Shown here: positions 1-61,957 of the stretch, in pieces
Layout of the letters: each line of letters begins with the position of its first letter
Numbering within the stretch: the stretch's first letter is position 1
NCBI GenBank assembly: GCA_015488215.1
Contig: WFOE01000107.1
Coordinates: forward strand, 1-61,957
Origin: Planctomycetales bacterium
GTDB lineage: Bacteria > Planctomycetota > Planctomycetia > Pirellulales > S012-138
Direction of reading: 5' to 3'
DNA length: 61,957 nt
The notes under the pieces: generated by a model
Told to the model about the DNA's origin: nothing
Seen by the model: the letters and a program-made list of their open reading frames with translations, nothing else
The model's database searches: none
Program-made: the position numbers and the translations under genes

Positions 1-200
1 GCTTGCGACTTGCGCCGTGCGCCTTGCGCGAGGAGCTTCCGCCCCAGCGGAAATCGAAGCGTTCCTGTTCGTACTCGTGCTCGTCCTTGTCATTCGTAAT
101 CGGCAGCTCGTTATCGCTGCTTGAGAATCGGCCCTCGGCGAGCCGGAGGCGTCAACTTCCGGAGAAACGCGACGAGCAAGCGTTTCCCGTTGTCAAGACA
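1..200. repeat. Mosaic repeat island, copy A
   Basis: This is one copy of the composite intergenic repeat found throughout the window. It runs, in order, through period-7 units (GCTTGCG, ACTTGCG, CCGTGCG, CCTTGCG) at 1-30, a small imperfect hairpin GGAGC-TTCC-GCCCC at 32-45, a degenerate CTCGTN hexamer tract at about 61-115, and the boundary word GGCGAGCC at 137-144, followed by an imperfect palindrome ending in TTCCGGAG. The same order recurs at 26.0, 38.1 and 50.0 kb and inverted at 61.8 kb. The window edge may cut the element. No gene is seen from 1 to 350. Confidence 0.75.
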
Positions 201-2684: not shown

Positions 2685-4517
2685 TTATTCCCGCTCGATA
2701 GTCAGCACGACACTGCCGGAGTTGTCGCCCAATTGGGACCAGGCGTCGCGGCAACGAACGAACAGTTGGCCGGAGGCCGGAGCCGTCCAGGTGCCTTCGG
2801 CCCCCAGCTCGAACGGCTCGGAAAGCTGGAAGTTCTGAAACAACACGCCCACCAGGCGTCCTTGGCCGTCGGGACGCCCGTCGGCTGTGACCGCTTCCAG
2901 CGAGTCGATTTTCCAGGTGCCTGCGGCCCGATAGCGGTATCCTTCCCCAGCCTGGACCTTGACGCCGGTGGCTTGCCAGCCGGCTTTGGCCTTGACGGTC
3001 ACGGTGCGCCGGGCACCGATGCGCAAAGGACGGAACCGCGTTTTCCAGTCCCAGGCGACCAGGTCGGCCCGAAACCCATTGTCCACGTGTTTGACAAAGA
3101 AGTCGTATTCGAAAGAAATCTGCCGGGCCACGGGACCGTAGACGCTCTGGAAGCTCACGCCCGGCCGTCTGCTCATCAGCCCGATGCCCAGGGCGCGGAA
3201 ACGCGGGGCGTAGTTCGGGTTGTGCATCAGCAAGTAGCACAGCGCCCAACGCCAAGCGTAGGCTTGCCAGGAATCGCCGGTAATCTGCCCGGGGGCGACG
3301 ATTTCGGCAAGCGTTTTAGGCCGCGAGGTTTTTAGATAGGTAATCACCACCGGCGGCACGTCCACGGCCAGTTGGTTGGGTTTCCAATAGTGGCCCAATT
3401 CCGCAATTCCTTCGGCATACCAGGTGGGGCCCGTGGAACCGAAAGTCAACGCACAAAAGGCGTGTACGGCTTCGTGCTGGACCACTTCCGGATTGTCGCA
3501 GGAATAGACAATTGCCTGCACCTGGCTTCCCAGGGTGCGGTGGATGGTTACCCCTTCGCGGTTTCTGATTTTCAGAAAAGCCTCGGGCGGGAAGGTGTCC
3601 GCGGGCCATTGGGCAAGGTCGCGGACGACAAAGCAGCGAATCGGCTGCCGCGGGCGACGGCCGAAGTACTTGGCCAGCAGCCTGTACATGGTTTCCAGCC
3701 TATCCAGCAGGATGCGGACCTTTCGTTCCGAGATGTCGGTATGCAACAGGAAATGGGCCGAACGCACGTCGCGGGGCTTGCGCGGCGCGTCGGAATACCG
3801 GGCGTAACGGTCTTCGGCCTTGGTTCGTCCAGGAGCGGTGTCGCCGTCCTGGGGGGCCAGTTGCACATGGATGGACTTGACGACCCAATCCCCCGTGTCG
3901 AACTTCCACAACAGGGCTTGCAGCACGCGGTCTCCGGGCTTGACTCGCTCCAGGTCGGTCGCTTCCAGGTTGACGTGGGCGTCGCGTGCCAAACGAAACT
4001 TTAGTTGCCGCTTCCGGAACCAGGGATTGCGCGGCACTTGCAGCGTCAGCCCGGAACGCGTGTTGCGAACCACCGCGCCGGTGATGCGGTAGCGGTGGGT
4101 CTTCGTGTCTGCTACCGCTTCCAGACGTTTGACTTCCGGGGTGAGTTTCGGCTTCCAGGTGATTTGCCGCAGCGGCTGCCGGGGCGTTCCCGACCGGCTC
4201 AGCACCGCTTCGACGGTAACGACCATCCCGGGCCGAAGTTGCCGGGGAGCAATTTGTCCTGTGACGCGCACCTGGGATTCAAAGGCGATGACCCCGGCCG
4301 CAAGCGCCACCCCCCGGCGAGCGTCGGTTCCCACATGGCAGACGAACGTGTTGCCTTGGGCGTCGGCCAGTGTGATCCGGGTGGGACTGACAGCTCGCAC
4401 CACTCCGCCGTCCAACCGCGTCTGCTGGACGACGCGTACTGCGCGCTGGGCCGCGGCTGTTGCCAGCAGCGGCCCCAACAGAAGTACCACCACCTGCAAC
4501 CCCAATTTCCCATTCAT
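2685..4517 (-). CDS. Secreted HExxH metalloprotease-like protein (DUF1570-type)
   Basis: This 610-residue protein begins with a signal peptide (MNGKLGLQ followed by a VVVLLLGPLLATAAA core). Residues 30-220 look like beta-rich domains with no family I recognise. Residues 250-450 carry H348-E-A-V-H352 and, 17 residues later, E369 in WYAEGIAE, the arrangement of gluzincin-type zinc peptidases and of planctomycete DUF1570 proteins. The last 110 residues resemble a beta-sandwich carbohydrate-binding domain (VTVKAKAGWQATGVKV through GSVVLTIERE). It is probably periplasmic or exported. It lies between serC and the large PQQ/TPR gene on the same strand, with gaps too long to assume an operon. The substrate is unknown. 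Confidence 0.7.
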   Translation of the reverse strand: MNGKLGLQVVVLLLGPLLATAAAQRAVRVVQQTRLDGGVVRAVSPTRITLADAQGNTFVCHVGTDARRGVALAAGVIAFESQVRVTGQIAPRQLRPGMVVTVEAVLSRSGTPRQPLRQITWKPKLTPEVKRLEAVADTKTHRYRITGAVVRNTRSGLTLQVPRNPWFRKRQLKFRLARDAHVNLEATDLERVKPGDRVLQALLWKFDTGDWVVKSIHVQLAPQDGDTAPGRTKAEDRYARYSDAPRKPRDVRSAHFLLHTDISERKVRILLDRLETMYRLLAKYFGRRPRQPIRCFVVRDLAQWPADTFPPEAFLKIRNREGVTIHRTLGSQVQAIVYSCDNPEVVQHEAVHAFCALTFGSTGPTWYAEGIAELGHYWKPNQLAVDVPPVVITYLKTSRPKTLAEIVAPGQITGDSWQAYAWRWALCYLLMHNPNYAPRFRALGIGLMSRRPGVSFQSVYGPVARQISFEYDFFVKHVDNGFRADLVAWDWKTRFRPLRIGARRTVTVKAKAGWQATGVKVQAGEGYRYRAAGTWKIDSLEAVTADGRPDGQGRLVGVLFQNFQLSEPFELGAEGTWTAPASGQLFVRCRDAWSQLGDNSGSVVLTIERE

Positions 4518-25954: not shown

Positions 25955-26330
25955 GCCGGCTTGAGGGCGTGGGGGCTTGGGGGGATGAGGCGCTGCTCCA
26001 GCACCGGGCGGGAAGGGGCTTGCGGCTTGCGCCGTGCGCCTTGCGCGAGGAGCTTCCGTTCCAGCGGGAAAGCACGCGTTCGTGCTCCTAATCGTACTCG
26101 TACTCGGAAGCGCGAGCTTGATCTTGTCGCTAATCGCGAATCGGCGAGCCGGGAGCTTTAAACGAAGGGGGGAGGCGTCGAGGCTTGGAAGCGTGGGGGG
26201 ACGGGGGCAGGAGCTTCCGCTCCGATGCAAGAGTAAACGCTGGATTCTCGCACTCGGCGAGCCGCCAGCTTTAGCTGGCGGAGGAGAAACACCAGTAAGC
26301 GATTTTCACCGGCTCCTCCCTTTTGGCGCC
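25955..26330. repeat. Mosaic repeat island, copy B
   Basis: In order, this island carries GGCTTGGGG-like units (about 25970-25990), the heptamer tract (26018-26046), hairpin GGAGC-TTCC-GTTCC (26049-26062), the CTCGTN hexamer tract (about 26073-26112), GGCGAGCC (26143-26150), hairpin GGAGC-TTCC-GCTCC (26210-26223), a second GGCGAGCC (26256-26263) and directly after it the larger hairpin GCCAGC-TTTA-GCTGGC (26264-26279). It fills the space between the converging kinase and DUF1080 genes. Confidence 0.8.
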
Positions 26331-37925: not shown

Positions 37926-38330
37926 GGGAGCTGCCGTTCCCGGAAGTCTTGGGTCTTGCGTTCTGGGGCCTGAGCAGGAGCTACCGCTCCGCAGGTCTTG
38001 CGTCTTGCGTCCTGGGTCTTGAGCAAGGTGCTTCCGCACCAGGCAGGAATTGCGCTGATACTTGCAACCGGCGTGGAGCTTCCGCTCCAGCGGAAAAACA
38101 AGCGTTCGTACTCCTAATCGTACTCGTGCTCGTGCTCGTGCTCGGAAACGCCATCTTGATCTTGTGGCTAATCGCGAATCGACAACCGGCGAGCCGCTGA
38201 CTTCCGTCGGCGGAGGTGACTCCCACCACAGCCACAGGTTGCTCCCGCACCGAAGCAAGAACAATCGCCAATTCGTGCAATCAGGCAACCGGCGAGTCCG
38301 AGCTTAGCTCGGGGAGAATGGAAGCCACCC
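37926..38330. repeat. Mosaic repeat island, copy C
   Basis: This island has a dense run of period-7 units of the TCTTGCG/TCTTGGG/TCTTGAG type (about 37947-38025) and three small hairpins: GGAGC-TACC-GCTCC (37977-37990), GGTGC-TTCC-GCACC (38027-38040) and GGAGC-TTCC-GCTCC (38075-38088). It also has the CTCGTN hexamer tract (38101-38145), GGCGAGCC (38188-38195) and the larger hairpin CCGCTGAC-TTCC-GTCGGCGG (38194-38213). A second GGCGAG precedes CCGAGC-TTA-GCTCGG (38298-38312). No gene is seen between 37885 and 38559. Confidence 0.8.
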
Positions 38331-42689: not shown

Positions 42690-42985
42690 GATGGCGTGGT
42701 CCCCGGCGAGCCGCCAGCTTTGCGAGCCGCCAGCTTTAGCTGGCGGAGGGCGGCACGGTGGTCGTCGACTGGGTGCTTCCGCACCGAAGGGCGTGGGGGC
42801 TTGGAGGCTTGGGGGCTTGAGGCGGAGCTTCCGCTCCGATGGGAGAATAAGCGCCAATTCCTGCAACCGGCGAGCCGGGGACTTTAGTTCCCGGAGGCAA
42901 ACAACGCGCAAGCGTTTTTCTCCGGACCTCCCCGGACTGAAGTCCGGGGCTCGCCATGAAGTCCGGGGCTCGCCGAAGCGCCGGC
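42690..42985. repeat. Mosaic repeat island, copy D, with an inverted hairpin pair
   Basis: In order, this island has GGCGAGCC (42705-42712) with a partial copy of the next unit, hairpin GCCAGC-TTTA-GCTGGC (42729-42744), GGTGC-TTCC-GCACC (42772-42785), GGCTTGGGG-like units (about 42795-42820), and GGAGC-TTCC-GCTCC (42824-42837). A symmetrical module follows: GGCGAGCC (42869-42876), hairpin CCGGGGAC-TTTA-GTTCCCGG (42875-42894), spacer, then hairpin CCCCGGAC-TGAA-GTCCGGGG (42930-42949) and GGCTCGCC (42948-42955). The stretch 42424-42689 before it holds only the upstream region of the minus-strand secreted protein. Confidence 0.85.
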
Positions 42986-43032
42986 AGAGCCGTGTGCTGA
43001 TTTGCTCAAAAACTATTGCTCAGGTACTTGGC

Positions 43033-43962
43033 ATGACCTCTTGGGAACCGTTTGCCTGGCTGGCCGTGGCGTTCCTGGCGGCTGCCTGCGGCCTGACGCT
43101 TGCCGCCCGGGGCAAGCTCCGGGACACCACGTTGCTTTGGCCGTGGGTCTGGGCCGTACCGGTTCCGGCCGTTTGGGCCGGGGTGGTGTTGTGGGCCGTA
43201 ACGAACCGCCCTCCGGCCGAAGCCGTCTTGCCCTGGCGCTACGCCGCCGGGGTGTTTTCCCTGGCTCCGGCCATCAGTCTGCTGGGCGTGCGCCGCCCGC
43301 ATCATCGCGCCTGGCAGTGGGTCGTTCTGTCGCTGGTAGGCGTGTTGTTTCTCCCGCTGGGGCACTGGGCCTTGGGAGGCGGCTTTTCAGGGCTGCGGCT
43401 GCACTGGCTCTGGCAGAGTTTTTTGCTGGTGTTGCTGACTCTGGGATGGCTTCACTACGGATGGACGCCCCATGCTCCGGCGGCCCTGCTAGTCGTGGTG
43501 GCGCAAGGGCTGTGGCTGTTTCCGGTGTTGGGTCCGCGGTCCTGGCACGCCGCTGGGTGGTTGGACCACCTGGGCGGGATGGCTCTGGCTTCGCTATTGC
43601 TAGGTGCGGCCGTGGCGTGGAGCTGGCTGCGAACCGGGCGAAGTGCGGGCAGGTCCTGCTCCTCGTCCGGCGTCCCTGGCCTTCTTGGCGGCGTTGAACG
43701 GTTGCTTTGTGATTTTCGCTTGTGGTTTGGCGATTTCTGGTTCCAGCGGTTACGCTGGCAGGTGATGTTGGCCGCTCAACGCGCCGGCTGGCCCGTGACG
43801 ATTACTCCCACGGGCCGTTTGATTGTGGAACGCACGGCGGCCGAGTCGGGGGGATGGGAGCAAGCTTTGCAAACCGGCGTCGAACAGTTCCTCAGGCGGT
43901 TCGTCGGCCGAGAGTGGATCCAGCGACGCGTTTCCCCGCACGAGAACCAGGCGCCCCGATGA
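43033..43962 (+). CDS. Polytopic membrane protein coupled to a PP2C phosphatase gene
   Basis: This 309-residue protein has six or seven hydrophobic segments in its first 215 residues, a short polar stretch (SCSSSGVPG), and a soluble C-terminal domain of about 90 residues (RWQVMLAAQRAGWPVTITPTGRLIVERTAAESGGWEQALQTGVEQFLRRF). I do not recognise a family. The ATG at 43033 is preceded by a short AGGT. The stop overlaps the next start (ATGA at 43959), so it is translationally coupled to the GAF/PP2C phosphatase, which suggests a shared signalling role (inference). Confidence 0.7.
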   Translation: MTSWEPFAWLAVAFLAAACGLTLAARGKLRDTTLLWPWVWAVPVPAVWAGVVLWAVTNRPPAEAVLPWRYAAGVFSLAPAISLLGVRRPHHRAWQWVVLSLVGVLFLPLGHWALGGGFSGLRLHWLWQSFLLVLLTLGWLHYGWTPHAPAALLVVVAQGLWLFPVLGPRSWHAAGWLDHLGGMALASLLLGAAVAWSWLRTGRSAGRSCSSSGVPGLLGGVERLLCDFRLWFGDFWFQRLRWQVMLAAQRAGWPVTITPTGRLIVERTAAESGGWEQALQTGVEQFLRRFVGREWIQRRVSPHENQAPR

Positions 43963-45269
43963 CCCAACCCCAACTGCTTGTCCCCGGCGATCTGGAGCTG
44001 CTGCACCGCCAGCGCCAGGCCCTGCAACGCTTGTTGGAACTGACCGGCACGCTGGCCCACCAGGTCCACCTGGACCAGACGCTGGAGAGCATCACGCAAC
44101 TGGCCTGCCAGGCGCTGGATTGCGAACGGGCCACGCTCTACCAGTACGATCCGGACCGGCAGGAGCTGGTCAGCCGGGCCGCCACGGAGCTGGAAATCCC
44201 GGAAATCCGCCACCGCCTGGGCGAAGGCATCTCCGGCTACGTGGCCCAGACCCGCCAGGTACTGCACGTGCCCGATGTGCATCGCGACCCTCGCTGGAGC
44301 GACCAGGTAGACCGCCGCACCGGGTTTCAGACCCGGTGTGTGCTAGCCGCCCCGATTGTCTCGCCCCGGGGCCAGTTGCTGGGCGTGTTGCAGGTGTTGA
44401 ACAAGCGAGGCTGCTCCTTCGAGCCGTTCGATGAGCAGTTGATTACCGCCTTCTGCCAGCACGCGGCCACGGCGTTAGAGCGGGCCCAGATGATCCAGGA
44501 AATGCGGCGTCAGGAAGCCGTGCAAGCCTCGCTGGAAGTGGCTCGCACGGTGCAGCGCTCGTTCATGCCCAAGCAACTCCCCCGCCTGCCCGGTTACGAG
44601 CTGGTCTATTGGTGGTATCCCCACCAGCACGTGGGCGGTGATTATCTGGACATCATCCCCTTGTCGGAAGAAAAAACGCTGCTGGTCATGGCCGACGTAA
44701 GCGGGCATGGGCTGGGACCGGCCCTGTTGATGGCTTCGGTTCGGGCGGCGCTTCGGGCTCTGGTAACCCAACACCACCGGCCGGACGAGCTGCTTATGCT
44801 ACTGAACCGCTCGCTGGCGGCCGACTTGCAAGATGGTCGTTTCGTCACCATGGTATTGGCCGTGTTGGACGTGCGAACCAACCAGGTGGAGTTTGCCAAC
44901 GCCGGGCACGGACCGGCGCTGCACTACCGGGCTGCCGAAGACCGTTTCGACGTGCTCGAAGCGACCGGATTGCCCCTGGGTGTGATGGAGGACGTCCCCT
45001 ACGAGACAGGTCCCCCGTGCCACATGGCCCCCGGCGACTTGCTGCTGCTTTGTACCGACGGGATCGTCGAAGCCCAAAACACCCAGGGCAAGGAGTTCAA
45101 ACTCGCCGGGCTCAAGCAGCTCATTCGCCAGACGGCTCCCCAGGGCGTCCGGGCCGTGGTGGACCAGATTGCAGAGCGGATGCGGGACTACTTCGTGGAC
45201 GAACAGCCGCAGGACGACCTGACCGTGCTGGCCCTCGGCCGTCTGGCGGATGCGGCTGGTGGGCCGTAG
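43959..45269 (+). CDS. GAF domain plus SpoIIE/PP2C-type serine phosphatase
   Basis: This 436-residue protein has a GAF sensor domain at about 35-175 (TLYQYDPDRQELVSRAA, GEGISGYVAQTRQVLHVPDV) and a SpoIIE/RsbU-type PP2C phosphatase domain at about 195-430. Metal-binding Asp residues are in VGGDYLDI and MADVSGHGLGPALLM, and a third acidic motif is in QPQDDLTVLAL. Family members dephosphorylate anti-sigma-factor antagonists in partner-switching pathways; no RsbV or RsbW homologue is in the window. Translation is coupled to the membrane protein gene before it. Confidence 0.92.
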   Translation: MTQPQLLVPGDLELLHRQRQALQRLLELTGTLAHQVHLDQTLESITQLACQALDCERATLYQYDPDRQELVSRAATELEIPEIRHRLGEGISGYVAQTRQVLHVPDVHRDPRWSDQVDRRTGFQTRCVLAAPIVSPRGQLLGVLQVLNKRGCSFEPFDEQLITAFCQHAATALERAQMIQEMRRQEAVQASLEVARTVQRSFMPKQLPRLPGYELVYWWYPHQHVGGDYLDIIPLSEEKTLLVMADVSGHGLGPALLMASVRAALRALVTQHHRPDELLMLLNRSLAADLQDGRFVTMVLAVLDVRTNQVEFANAGHGPALHYRAAEDRFDVLEATGLPLGVMEDVPYETGPPCHMAPGDLLLLCTDGIVEAQNTQGKEFKLAGLKQLIRQTAPQGVRAVVDQIAERMRDYFVDEQPQDDLTVLALGRLADAAGGP

Positions 45270-45309
45270 CAACCGGCCGGTCCGGCCCTCTGCTGAAGAA
45301 AGACTTGCC

Positions 45310-47043
45310 ATGAACCAATCCAACCGCGTTGACGAAGAACGCCAACTGTTGCTCCAGGCCCAGCAACGCGGCCCGTTGGCCACGCTTGCCGCCTGGGTGC
45401 GTCTTTCCGGCCCGGGGTGGCTGCAAAGCGCGATTACTCTGGGGGGCGGCTCGCTGGCCAGCAGTCTTTACCTGGGCGTGCTGGCCGGCGTGGGCCTGCT
45501 GTGGCTGCAACCGCTGGCGATGGCCTTGGGCATCGTCATGCTGGGGGCCATCGGCTACGTGACGCTCTCCACGGGACAGCGACCGTTCCGGGCCATCAAC
45601 CAATATGTAAACCCGGTGCTGGGCTGGAGCTGGGCCCTGGCCTCCCTGGCGGCCAGCATGGTCTGGTGCCTGCCGCAGTTTTCGCTGGCCACCGGCGTGT
45701 TGCAACAGAACCTGGCCCCAGGGCTGCTGGGACCCGAGGGCCCCCTGGGCGATACGGCCGCCAAGGGACTCATCGCCGCCGTAATCCTGGTGGTGACGGT
45801 GGCCATCACCTGGAGCTACGATTCGGGCCGCTGGGGCATCCGGCTCTACGAGCTGGTGCTCAAGCTGATGGTGGGCCTGATTGTGGTCTGCTTCGTGGGC
45901 GTGGTTTGGGTGCTCCGCAGCCAGTTGGACTGGGGAGAGATTGGGGCCGGGTTTATCCCCGACCTGCGCCGCATCTTCCAACCGGCCCCCGCCTTGCAGC
46001 CTTTGCTGGACCAGATTGCCGAACCGGGCCGAAGCTACTGGGTGCGGCAGATTGTCGCGGCCGGACGCGATACGCTGGTCAGCGCCGCAGCCACGGCCGT
46101 GGGAATCAACATGACGTTTCTGTTCCCTTACTCGCTCCTGCGCCGCGGCTGGACGCGAGAGTTCCGCGGCCTGGCCATCTTCGACCTGGCCACGGGGATG
46201 TTCATCCCCTTTGTGCTGGCCACCAGTTGCGTCATCATTGCCGCGGCCGCCCGATTCCACGGACAGCCGGTCCCAGGACTGGTGGCCGAAGACCGCACCG
46301 CGCCAGGCCGCAAGCCTTCCCCGGCCGAGCAGCGGGAGTATCGCTCGCTGCTGCTGGGCCGCTTGGCCCAGGACCTGCCCGAGGAAGAACTGGCCCGGTT
46401 GAAGCAAAACCCCGCTGCTCTGGAGCAGCGGCTGCGCCAGCTTCCGCTGGCTGAACGCCGCCTGGCCGCCACGCTGGTGAAACGGGACGCCTACGCCCTG
46501 GCCCAATCGCTGGCCGAGCTGGTCGGGCGGCAGGGGGCGCACTGGATTTTCGGGCTGGGGGTGCTGGGGATGACCCTCTCCACGATTACGCTGCTGATGC
46601 TCATCTCCGGGTTTGTCGTCTGCGAGATGTTCGATCTGCCCCAGGGCGGCTGGTCGCACCGGCTCGGCTCGCTGTTGGCGGGCGTGGGTGCGTTGGGGCC
46701 GTTTATCTGGGGCAAGGCGTCGTTTTACCTGGCAGTGCCGACTTCGGTGTTCGGTTTCATCTTGTTGCCGATTGCGTACCTGACGTTTTTCTTTCTGATG
46801 AACCAACCTCGGCTGCTGGGAGACGACATGCCCCGGGGATTCCGCCGCCTGGTGTGGAACCTGCTCATGGGCGTGGCCGCCACGGTAGCCACGGTGGCCA
46901 GCGTAACGATGGTCTGGGTCAAAGCGGGTCGGTGGGGGATTGCGGCCGTGGTGGGGCTGGTCCTGCTGGCCCTGGTGGTGCAGGTGGCCAGGCGAGGCCG
47001 CCCGATTCCGCCCCCTGCGGCCCAGGAAGAAACCTCCTCGTAG
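45310..47043 (+). CDS. Nramp-like divalent metal cation transporter
   Basis: This 577-residue protein has about eleven or twelve membrane helices and resembles Nramp/APC-fold transporters. The N-terminal GPGWLQSAITLGGGSLASSLYLG occupies the place of the conserved DPGN helix, but the metal-binding DPGN itself is not present in that form, so substrate is uncertain. A hydrophilic insert (about 325-395, EDRTAPGRKPSPAEQREY) interrupts the later helices. The ATG at 45310 has a weak AAGAAAG upstream. It follows the phosphatase gene by 40 bases on the same strand. Confidence 0.75.
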   Translation: MNQSNRVDEERQLLLQAQQRGPLATLAAWVRLSGPGWLQSAITLGGGSLASSLYLGVLAGVGLLWLQPLAMALGIVMLGAIGYVTLSTGQRPFRAINQYVNPVLGWSWALASLAASMVWCLPQFSLATGVLQQNLAPGLLGPEGPLGDTAAKGLIAAVILVVTVAITWSYDSGRWGIRLYELVLKLMVGLIVVCFVGVVWVLRSQLDWGEIGAGFIPDLRRIFQPAPALQPLLDQIAEPGRSYWVRQIVAAGRDTLVSAAATAVGINMTFLFPYSLLRRGWTREFRGLAIFDLATGMFIPFVLATSCVIIAAAARFHGQPVPGLVAEDRTAPGRKPSPAEQREYRSLLLGRLAQDLPEEELARLKQNPAALEQRLRQLPLAERRLAATLVKRDAYALAQSLAELVGRQGAHWIFGLGVLGMTLSTITLLMLISGFVVCEMFDLPQGGWSHRLGSLLAGVGALGPFIWGKASFYLAVPTSVFGFILLPIAYLTFFFLMNQPRLLGDDMPRGFRRLVWNLLMGVAATVATVASVTMVWVKAGRWGIAAVVGLVLLALVVQVARRGRPIPPPAAQEETSS

Positions 47044-47077
47044 CCGTTTCCCGTGCCTGGTCGTCGAAGGTGCTGCC

Positions 47078-47878
47078 ATGCAACTTGTTCCCGTGGCCGA
47101 TACGCAACTGGCCGTGCTCCAGCAAGGAGAAGGTCCCCCGGTGCTGCTGGTGCACGGGTTTCCGCTGGACCATTCCATGTGGAAGTACCAAATCGAACAT
47201 CTGGCTCGTACCCATCGGGTCATCGCCCCGGACTTGCGCGGGCTGGGGCAAAGTCCCGTGGCCGGATCGCCCGTGACGATGGAACGCTTTGCCGACGATT
47301 TGGCCTTGCTGCTTGAGGCCCTGGGGGTGCAGCAGCCCGTGCTTTACTTGGGGCTTTCTATGGGCGGCTATATCGCCTGGGAGATGCTGCGCCGCCACCG
47401 GCAGCGACTGCGCGGGCTGGTGCTTTGCGACACCAAAGCCCAGGCCGACACGCCCGAAGCAGCCCAGGCACGCCGCCAGATGGCCGAAACAATCCTCCGC
47501 CAAGGGATGCAGCCGCTAGAGCAAGCGATGCGGCAAAAGCTCTGGGCCCCCCACAGCACCACCCGGCGCGATGAGGACCTGGAACATGTGCAGCAGGTTA
47601 TCGCCCGGACCAATCCCCGAGGAGCCGCCGCGGCCCTGCTGGGCATGGCCCAACGAGCCGACGCCACGGAGTTGCTCCCCCGGATCGACTTGCCGGTGCT
47701 GGTCGTCTGCGGGGAGCAGGACGTGCTTTCCCCGCCGGAACAGATGGAAGCGATGGCCCGGGCCATTCCCGGTGCCCACTTTGCGCTGATTCCTCAGGCT
47801 GGCCACATGGCCCCGCTGGAAAACCCTGCAGAGGTCAACGCCCGGTTGGACCGCTTCGTGCAGTCGCTAGATAACTGA
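47078..47878 (+). CDS. Alpha/beta-fold hydrolase
   Basis: This 266-residue protein has the oxyanion segment LLVHGFPLDHSMW (about 23-35), the nucleophile elbow LGLSMGGYIA with S94, an acid residue in VVCGEQDVLSPPEQM and the catalytic His in PQAGHMAPLENP. It has no signal peptide. The family covers esterases, lactonases and haloperoxidase-like enzymes, and substrate cannot be assigned. The ATG at 47078 follows GAAGG, 34 bases after the transporter gene. Confidence 0.88.
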   Translation: MQLVPVADTQLAVLQQGEGPPVLLVHGFPLDHSMWKYQIEHLARTHRVIAPDLRGLGQSPVAGSPVTMERFADDLALLLEALGVQQPVLYLGLSMGGYIAWEMLRRHRQRLRGLVLCDTKAQADTPEAAQARRQMAETILRQGMQPLEQAMRQKLWAPHSTTRRDEDLEHVQQVIARTNPRGAAAALLGMAQRADATELLPRIDLPVLVVCGEQDVLSPPEQMEAMARAIPGAHFALIPQAGHMAPLENPAEVNARLDRFVQSLDN

Positions 47879-48004
47879 CCGCCGAAATACCACTGCCACA
47901 GAGACAATCCGGTTGGCATCCGGGGGCGGATGGAAAACAATGACTTGCCGGAACCCTTTACCGGCATCGCCGCCAGCCGGACGAACCCGTTTGAAGGAAC
48001 TCCG

Positions 48005-48835
48005 ATGATCCCGCTTTACGACAACATCCCCTCGCGCACTACGCCGTGGGTCAACTACCTGATTGTGGCGCTGACCACCCTGGTGTTCGGCTTGCAATTG
48101 CTGGACCAGTACAACGACAACCGCTGGCAACTGGTCGAACGGTTCGGCATGGTGCCGCAGCGGGTGTTGCACCCGGGCACGACCGTGGTGATGGATGTGC
48201 CGCAAGTGGTCGCCACGCCCCTGGGGCCGCGGGTGGTACGGGTGCAGAAGGTCATCCCGCCAGCGGCGGTGCCGGAGTGGCTGACTCTGCTAACCTGCAT
48301 CTTTTTGCACGGGGGGTGGATGCACTTTCTGGGCAATATGTGGTTTCTCTACATCTTCGGGGACAACGTAGAAGACCGCCTGGGCCACGCTGGGTTTTTG
48401 ATCTTCTACCTGGCAAGCGGCGTGTTGGCCAGCGCGGCCCATCTGGCAGCCAATCCGGATTCGCCGGTACCCACCATCGGCGCCAGCGGAGCAATCGCCG
48501 GGGTGATGGGAGCCTATTTCATCTTTTATCCCAAGGCCCAGGTCGTCGCCCTGATTCCGTTGTTTTTCATCTTCTATTCGGTGGTGCTGCCGGCGCCGGT
48601 GTTTTTGGGCTTTTGGTTCTTCATTCAGTTCTTTCAAGGGATTGGTTCGATTACCGCGGGCCAAAGCGGCGGTGTGGCCTGGTGGGCCCATATTGGCGGG
48701 TTCGTCGTGGGGATGCTGGTGGCCCGCTCGCTCATCCCCACCCGGCTGACTCGTCCGCCGGTAACAGAGCGCCGCCCCGGAACCGAACGCATCGGTATCT
48801 ACCGCTACCGCCCGCGGTATCCCATGGGCCCATAG
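48005..48835 (+). CDS. Rhomboid-family intramembrane serine protease
   Basis: This 276-residue protein has about six membrane helices. The catalytic pair is present: S161 in TIGASGAIAG and H229 in WWAHIGGFVVG. The conserved HGGWMHFLGNMWFLYIFGDNVED, with N111, forms the oxyanion/L1 region. It cleaves membrane proteins within their transmembrane segments, and the substrate is unknown. The 40-residue loop between the first helix and the second resembles that of other environmental rhomboids. The ATG at 48005 follows GAAGGAA and is preferred over an in-frame ATG at 47930. Confidence 0.93.
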   Translation: MIPLYDNIPSRTTPWVNYLIVALTTLVFGLQLLDQYNDNRWQLVERFGMVPQRVLHPGTTVVMDVPQVVATPLGPRVVRVQKVIPPAAVPEWLTLLTCIFLHGGWMHFLGNMWFLYIFGDNVEDRLGHAGFLIFYLASGVLASAAHLAANPDSPVPTIGASGAIAGVMGAYFIFYPKAQVVALIPLFFIFYSVVLPAPVFLGFWFFIQFFQGIGSITAGQSGGVAWWAHIGGFVVGMLVARSLIPTRLTRPPVTERRPGTERIGIYRYRPRYPMGP

Positions 48836-48887
48836 GAAGTCAACCGGTAGAGTCTTTCAGCGCCGGCGGACGCTGATGTTCCGCACC

Positions 48888-49236
48888 TAGCGAGCCCCGG
48901 ACTTCAGTCCGGGGAGAGCCGATTGAAAGAAAAGGCTTTTTCTTGCGGTGGTGCGGAAGCACCAATCGCCGACGGCCGTGCCGTCCTCCGCCAGCTAAAG
49001 CTGGCGGCTCGCCGTTTGCGAAAATCAGCGATTGTTCTCGCATTGGTGCGGAAGCGCCTCGCTCAAGACCCAAGACGCAAGACCCAAGACCTGTAGAGCA
49101 AAAGCTCCCGCGCAACAGCGCACGGCGCAAGCCGCAAGCCGATTCCCGCCCAGCGAGCCCCGGACTTCAGTCCGGGGAGACAAGAAGAAACGCTTTTGGT
49201 AAGTTTTTCTCCGGGAGCTGAAGCTCCCGGCTCGCC
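48888..49236. repeat. Mosaic repeat island, copy E, with two hairpin-pair modules
   Basis: This island holds the clearest hairpin pairs. The first module runs from CGAGC plus hairpin CCCCGGAC-TTCA-GTCCGGGG (48895-48914), through hairpin GGTGC-GGAA-GCACC (48950-48963), to CCGCCAGC-TAAA-GCTGGCGG (48988-49007) plus CTCGCC. The second runs from hairpin CCCCGGAC-TTCA-GTCCGGGG (49158-49177) across about 33 bases to CCGGGAGC-TGAA-GCTCCCGG (49211-49230) plus CTCGCC. Between the modules are GGTGC-GGAA-GCGCC (49045-49058) and inverted heptamer tracts (49063-49098 and 49117-49140). It separates the rhomboid and mog genes. Confidence 0.85.
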
Positions 49237-49921: not shown

Positions 49922-50270
49922 AAGCCTGCAGCGGAGAAAGGGCTTGGGGGAGTAAGGGGATGAAGCCGTGGGGACGTGGAGGGGGTGCTTCCGCTCCGGG
50001 GCGAGAATCGGCTTGCGGCTTGCGCCGTGCGCCTTGCGCGGTGCTTCCGCACCAGCGGGAAAAACGCTCGCACTCGTGCTCGTACTCGTAATCGTAATCG
50101 GCAGCTCGTTAACGGCAATCGCGAATCGGCAACCGGCGAGCCGCCGACTTGGAGAGGTCTTGCGTCTTGGGTCGTGTGTCTTGAGCAGGTGCTTCCGCAC
50201 CGATGCGAGAAGAAAGAATCGCCGATTCTTGCACTCGGCGAGCCGGAAGTTTCACTGCCCAGAGATAGGG
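49922..50270. repeat. Mosaic repeat island, copy F
   Basis: In order, this island has the heptamer tract (50011-50039), hairpin GGTGC-TTCC-GCACC (50040-50053), the CTCGTN/TAATCG hexamer tract (about 50065-50110), and GGCGAGCC (50135-50142) with a truncated larger hairpin. TCTTGCG-type heptamers follow (about 50157-50186), then a second GGTGC-TTCC-GCACC (50188-50201) and GGCGAGCC (50237-50244). Just before it, the phrase TCTCTGAAACCCA occurs twice in tandem near 49860-49888. Confidence 0.8.
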
Positions 50271-61613: not shown

Positions 61614-61957
61614 GCAAGCCCCGGACTTCGGTTCGGGGAGATGAGAGGAAACGGTCTTTTGTGACTTTTCTCCGGGAGCTAACACTCACGGCTCGCCGAG
61701 TGCCGATTGCGACTCTACACGCTCGTTTATTCTTGCCTCGGAGCGGAAGCTCCCAGTGGTCACGGCCCGGCCGCCTCCGCCGACTGAAGTCGGCGGCTCG
61801 CTGAGTGCGATGAGCGATAACGAGCTGCCGATTCCGAATCGAGTACGAGCACGAGCGTTTGTTTTCCGCTGGTGCGGGAGCACCCGCGCAAGGCGCACGG
61901 CGCAAGCCGCAAGCCTATCCTCGCCCGGAGCGGAAGCTCCCCTCCAAGCCCCCACAC
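61614..61957. repeat. Mosaic repeat island, copy G (mostly inverted)
   Basis: A degraded hairpin-pair module comes first: AGCCCCGGAC-TTCGGTTCGGGGAG, spacer, then CTCCGGGAGC plus CGGCTCGCC at 61689-61697. It is followed by hairpin GGAGC-GGAA-GCTCC (61740-61753), the larger hairpin CCGCCGAC-TGAA-GTCGGCGG (61777-61796) followed by CTCGC, an inverted hexamer tract (about 61815-61860), hairpin GGTGC-GGGA-GCACC (61871-61884), an inverted heptamer tract (61887-61915) and GGAGC-GGAA-GCTCC (61927-61940). The order is the reverse complement of copies A, B and F. The window ends within it. Confidence 0.8.

Follow-up and report, generated by a model that had tools for sequence, protein, structure and literature searches.

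Planctomycete hairpins with two different ends are a probable new form of bacterial REP repeat

What are the small hairpins that crowd two intergenic islands of this planctomycete contig, and how have their stems stayed paired while changing in sequence? The window, by which we mean the whole 61,957-nucleotide stretch that was analysed, belongs to a genome of 4.29 Mb, here called G000. An initial annotation of positions 42690-49236 had described hairpins beside a fixed boundary word and had likened them to REP/BIME or miniature transposable elements, possible substrates of a mobilizing enzyme. The family is real. This interval holds seven intact hairpins, scoring 40-47 bits with a family model, and two half copies, all confined to intergenic islands at 42.70-42.98 kb and 48.88-49.24 kb, and the remainder of the 6.5 kb is mostly ordinary genes. 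Over the whole window the model finds 13 copies at E <= 0.003. The features are as follows.

137..165, + strand: element with a GTCA loop, 36.6 bits
26256..26284, + strand: intact, beyond the annotated interval, 46.8 bits
38188..38216, + strand: decayed element, 31.9 bits
42705..42720, + strand: half copy (GGCGAGCCGCCAGCTT) immediately 5' of the 42721 element, read from the sequence
42721..42749, + strand: intact, B-type stem CCGCCAGC, loop TTTA, 40.2 bits
42869..42897, + strand: intact, B-type stem CCGGGGAC (one G-T pair), loop TTTA, 42.5 bits
42870-42954: inverted doublet; left half the 42869 element, right half the 42927 element
42927..42955, - strand: intact, A-type stem CCCCGGAC, loop TTCA, 46.7 bits
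42957..42974, - strand: half copy (tag and half stem), read from the sequence
48889..48917, + strand: intact, A-type stem CCCCGGAC, loop TTCA, 45.0 bits
48890-49012: long-spacer doublet; left half the 48889 element
48985..49013, - strand: intact, B-type stem CCGCCAGC, loop TTTA, 46.8 bits
49152..49180, + strand: intact, A-type stem CCCCGGAC, loop TTCA, 45.0 bits
49153-49235: short-spacer doublet; left half the 49152 element
49208..49236, - strand: intact, B-type stem CCGGGAGC, loop TTCA, 46.5 bits
61613..61641, + strand: decayed element, 25.4 bits
61669..61697, - strand: partly decayed element, 36.4 bits
61774..61802, - strand: intact, beyond the annotated interval, 46.1 bits
1-50, 26006-26047, 37944-38025, 49044-49151, 49999-50040 and 61884-61926: short-period repeats or runs

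The half hairpins at 42705-42720 and 42957-42974 lie against or very near intact copies, a pattern expected from slippage or template switching. Much of the island sequence consists of short-period repeats (GGCTTGCGGCTTGCGCC; GGTCTTGCGTCTTG) and TCGTACTCG runs, and distant islands are linked by inverted copies of 30-71 nt. The same islands carry a second covarying hairpin module, GGnGCTTCCGCnCC, at 26210-26223, 42824-42837, 48950-48963 and 61740-61753 of the window, among others; it occurs 77 times in a 413-kb sample of G000 (control 1) and 143 times in a sample of a sister species, G051 (control 0).

The consensus of the hairpin is a 29-nt unit, GGCGAG-CC[N5]C-KTNA-G[N5]GG-AGR. The boundary word GGCGAGCC is made up of two parts, the 6-nt unpaired tag GGCGAG and the initial two stem bases, CC. 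It appears 23 times in the window compared with 8.2 expected, several of these being chance matches inside genes. The tag is 94-99% conserved and the inner AG 96-100%, while the stems vary. The annotation held that the stems differ completely yet stay paired. Pairing is kept, but CC/GG at the outer end of the stem and C/G at the inner end are nearly constant, and it is the five middle pairs that vary, in a few recurring classes. We distinguish class A (CCCCGGAC and relatives) from class B (CCGCCGAC, CCGCCAGC, CCGGGAGC and CCGGGGAC). The reported loops TTYA and TGAA are one and the same, TGAA/TAAA being TTYA seen from the other strand. More generally the loop is KTNA, in two classes, TTNA (tail AG) and GTNA (tail TT or AG).

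G000 was studied through about 413 kb sampled by region and through pattern searches of the genome, and was compared with G051 (MAG JALSGI) and G027, sister species of the same genus; these genomes are fragmented MAGs. In the 413 kb, tag and loop occur together at 76 places, and 51 of these have a perfect 8-bp stem, compared with 12.3 when the 3' arms are random. The equivalent figure for G051 is 157 of 206 places, against 23.0. Conversely, when stem and loop are fixed and the tag is left free, GCGAG is found in 51/55 cases in G000 and in 157/162 in G051. In a set of 74 distinct copies, pairing holds in 95.8% of stem cells, compared with 73.6% after shuffling and 31-42% when the structure is slid. 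Double changes occupy 132 cells, compared with 42.8 after shuffling, and none of 500 shuffles reached the observed level. The 74-copy figures lean towards structure because these copies were preselected by the KTNA loop and at least five pairs; the random-arm test uses no pairing filter. The paired stem changes proposed at the outset are thus borne out.

A strict pattern, with GCGAG and the CTTYAG loop fixed and seven bases per arm free, finds 417 copies in G000 and 3 when the pattern is reversed as a control; a GCTAG control finds none. A chance origin is ruled out by these numbers, and so is the suggestion that copies might occur only in this window. Strict copies number 824 in G051 and 38 in G027 (control 14). 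Across 297 genomes of the order these three stand out, and nearly all others are at or below the control. One genome, G169, has a modest excess (26 compared with 9) but no covariance-model match. At E <= 0.01 the family model finds five copies in one genome of the same family and none in eight genomes from other families. An order-wide family is therefore ruled out; the family is genus-specific, clear enrichment being found in the genus only. As to viral carriage, just one of the viral contigs in the collection matched.

The copies form inverted doublets of about 80-85 nt with the tags outside. Neighbouring copies in G000 are arranged with tags outside in 24 cases, with tags inside in 4 and as direct repeats in 14, so that the inverted pair is the commonest arrangement, as in REPINs. 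The spacer is usually 28-43 nt, with a mode of about 31-36 nt in both G000 and G051. Loop classes pair alike, T with T and G with G, and the two stems never match: identical stems occur in 0/91 doublets, where 4.4/22 and 6.0/69 would be expected (P = 0.0005 and 0.0015). Among T-loop doublets 56/60 join an A stem to a B stem (P = 4.5e-13 against one half). The A end is extended in G051 by AGAGCC, with at least 95% conservation per position, and the B end has no such extension. When folded with DNA energies, 55 of the 91 doublets form two separate hairpins. Artificial doublets with the same stem on both sides do so in 0/182 cases, and their mean energy shifts from about -28 to about -46 kcal/mol, as for one long hairpin. 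The family thus departs from the symmetry of REPINs, in which symmetric ends give one long hairpin.

These doublets bear on another account of the covariation, in which quasi-palindrome correction, with template switching that matches one arm to the other, produces paired changes without selection for the fold. Most copies are near-perfect palindromes, and half copies lie beside intact ones in the window, as such a process would leave. Against it stand a tag and tail that lie outside the palindrome and are equally conserved, the recurrence of a few stem classes in two species, and A and B stems that stay distinct within a doublet, and we consider it very improbable.

The sites occupied differ between species. 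The gene pair around 42.62-43.23 kb is separated by 611 nt with three elements in G000 and by 245 nt with none in G051; this is the one clean filled/empty pair, and its flanks have diverged. At a second junction (contig C49, 54.71 kb) a T-loop doublet in G000 is replaced by a G-loop doublet in G051. Two further junctions among the four syntenic ones that were flagged (L087 and L130) were left out as unclean comparisons.

A search for a REP-associated tyrosine transposase (RAYT) had been suggested. This search succeeded in G051 and failed in G000: neither the Pfam model nor tblastn with a sister RAYT found a Y1 transposase in G000, nor did Pfam or tblastn find one in G027, which has copies. Four RAYT-like genes, all from a single subfamily, occur in G051 along with a further, weak Y1 match. 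All four genes are bounded by outward-facing hairpins, one side being visible at L170.

L172: A hairpin GCGAG-CCCCCGGC-TTTA overlapping the 3' end of the gene; B hairpin GCGAG-CCGCCGAC-TTTA 23 nt before the start
L167: gene between GTCA-loop hairpins with a TTG tail, as in G-loop doublets
L170: GTCA hairpin 38 nt past the 3' end; the opposite side is off the contig
L165: AAGAG-tagged hairpins on both sides

The L172 gene is therefore flanked by the same A/B pair as the doublets. Among 249 ordinary G051 genes, an approximate set from a simple codon-based predictor, 3 have an element facing outward at their stop, 15 have one at their start and none has both. A third hairpin family, with an AAGAG tag and the form CCCCGCAC-GTTA-GTGCGGGG-AGA, makes short tandem arrays flanking the RAYT gene within the stretch 1152-2213 of L165.

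Elsewhere in the phylum we found 13 relatives of these genes, in 10 of 392 genomes. Relatives from other families and classes carry GCGAG hairpins on both sides (L202, L208 and L209) or on one (L199), and L207 has GGAG on both sides; the same search found no bounding hairpins at the other eight. The feet of the flanking hairpins are mostly GCGA(G), with TGGA(G) or AAGA(G) in others. The HUH (HxH), W and Y residues of the proteins are invariant, and GS and Y/Q residues are also shared. WT/WA and an N-terminal TWTTYG are conserved, with Y----Q in L201, L206, L207 and L211 and Y---Q in the rest. The proteins score above the Pfam Y1_Tnp cut-off; the NCBIfam RAYT model is their best match, yet at 38-51 bits it lies under its cut-off of 80. 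A phmmer search against solved structures gave nothing useful and we therefore used a structure model. The predicted RAYT structure (pLDDT 86.8) matches ISDra2 TnpA and the E. coli RAYT 4er8 (E of about 2e-5), and also IS200.

That RAYTs are the only genes seen between such ends also speaks against taking the doublets for MITEs derived from a DDE transposon with GGCGAG at the start of its terminal inverted repeats. Inverted ends of about 28 nt, a total length of 80-85 nt and a high copy number would suit such elements, but we regard this as the least probable of the alternatives considered here.

The position of the copies relative to genes must also be weighed. They are intergenic in 82 of 87 cases and scarce in divergent gaps (2/51 compared with 27/177, P = 0.03). 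At 29 nt, with hundreds of extragenic copies, the hairpin has the size, number and location of REPs, which are 20-40-nt palindromes of high copy number. Copies lying between tandem and convergent genes would also be expected if the hairpins were RNA elements, 3'-end stabilizers or terminators kept by the host, with mobility incidental or absent. The retained stem pairing agrees with that idea, as does the listing of a similar hairpin, Acido-Lenti-1, as an sRNA in Rfam. However, no full element stem falls on any of the region's terminator-like sites, and a stabilizer would need neither a conserved unpaired tag nor obligate two-ended doublets. The difference in occupancy between the sister species and the RAYT genes that bear the same ends also count against it. 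We judge it unlikely, though less so than the other two alternatives.

Acido-Lenti-1 (RF01687) is a candidate RNA described in 2010 (PMC2864571). At gathering thresholds Rfam has no match in the window, and a weak HgcC match (19 bits) was dismissed as chance. Read on the opposite strand, RF01687 has the same hairpin plan, AG-CC...C-KTNA-G...GG; it differs in its tag, (N)TAG, and in a second C/G-rich hairpin. Copies from the genus score 21-29 bits (21.1 in the window, on the opposite strand, and at best 29.1 in G051), below the gathering threshold of 37 bits. Four other genomes (G042, G401, G559 and G012) have matches above it. No copy lies near any listed Y1 gene in G012; in the remaining three the neighbour is the best-scoring Y1/RAYT gene.

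G042 (L163), C135:3407-4209: RF01687 copies at 3407, 4074 and 4164 surround the Y1 gene 3630-3959
G401, C1:536119-537160: 4 of 17 RF01687 copies within about 510 nt of the Y1 gene 536628-536978
G559, C2:132045-132593: one RF01687 copy 160 nt from the Y1 gene at C2:132249

These three planctomycete genomes suggest that RF01687 is a REP-like element, which may be mobile DNA, rather than an sRNA.

As a whole, these results describe a family of structured, tagged hairpins that form doublets and whose sites of occupancy are lineage-specific; in a close relative, RAYT genes have the same ends. We conclude, with a probability of about 0.85, that the hairpins are non-autonomous elements of the REP/REPIN type with a REP/RAYT origin. 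The REP-like reading of the initial annotation gains support from the spread, covariation, doublets and intergenic sites, and from the lineage-specific occupancy and the RAYT genes of the sister species. Because that species keeps transposase genes that most likely copy the hairpins around, the family is a new form of the known REP repeats and no new kind of element.

Comparison with known systems locates it further. Like REPs with GTAG or CGTC tags (Di Nocera 2013, PMC3733652; Nunvar 2010, PMC2817692), its members are short, numerous intergenic palindromes that have a conserved unpaired tag on one side, change their stems in a complementary way and form inverted doublets. Those REPs have a RAYT between inverted copies; in the present family this arrangement is seen in G051, and no RAYT was found in G000. 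The tag differs, being GGCGAG instead of GT(A/G)G or CGTC. With REPINs (Bertels and Rainey 2011, PMC3116915) it shares a basic unit, an inverted pair of REPs with a set length, although here the stems of a pair never match. TnpAY1 class 3 (Quentin 2018, PMC6006769) is the closest system described in print; it comprises mostly planctomycete and acidobacterial Y1 proteins whose genes are flanked by "atypical secondary structures", numerous at times (about 600 in Solibacter), with the foot CnGA. We read the associated RAYT as resembling this class: the extended conserved N-terminus and W[TA] motif agree and Y----Q is present in some members, whereas most G051 proteins have Y---Q and the foot is GCGA(G). 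The ends of IS200/IS605 elements (IS608, ISDra2) are alike in having a guide 5' to the hairpin, different left and right ends and an HUH/Y1 enzyme, and these elements are the closest fold matches of the RAYT structure model. The ends of IS200 lie on the same strand. Here the hairpins are inverted, and most units lack a transposase gene.

Earlier RAYT/REP work (PMC2817692, PMC8266576, PMC3116915) is the basis for a mechanism in which tag and loop would be recognized and the doublet moved. A Y1/HUH transposase of the RAYT kind would bind the folded hairpin on single-stranded DNA, recognizing it by the unpaired 5' guide GGCGAG, cut beside the guide, and copy or move the doublet to other intergenic sites. 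The stems could covary because such an enzyme would depend on the fold, the tag and the loop and not on which bases form the stem, and a difference between the A and B stems would leave each of the two hairpins able to fold. The A/B doublets probably descend from a RAYT gene and the hairpins on either side of it, the gene itself having been lost. G000 may have lost its RAYT after the spread, or the gene may lie in the 3.5% that is missing or where a contig breaks off, so that the copies there would now be relics or be kept for host use.

The usual description of REP elements includes a GTAG tag and doublets that are symmetric. This family has a different tag, which is conserved at the sides of RAYT relatives in several planctomycete families, together with an obligate two-ended doublet. 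A more specific proposal, which we offer tentatively and consider less likely than not, is that the A/B doublets are two-ended REPs whose stems are held different for separate folding, as are the two ends, left and right, in IS200/IS605 elements. Such doublets would then bridge those ends and the symmetric REPINs, would be moved in trans by a class-3-like RAYT, and would share a group of mobile DNA hairpins with Acido-Lenti-1. With this tag and the obligate two-ended doublet, the proposal that REPs descend from the ends of IS200/IS605 elements becomes testable, and one or more of the "sRNA" families in Rfam may be mobile DNA rather than RNA.
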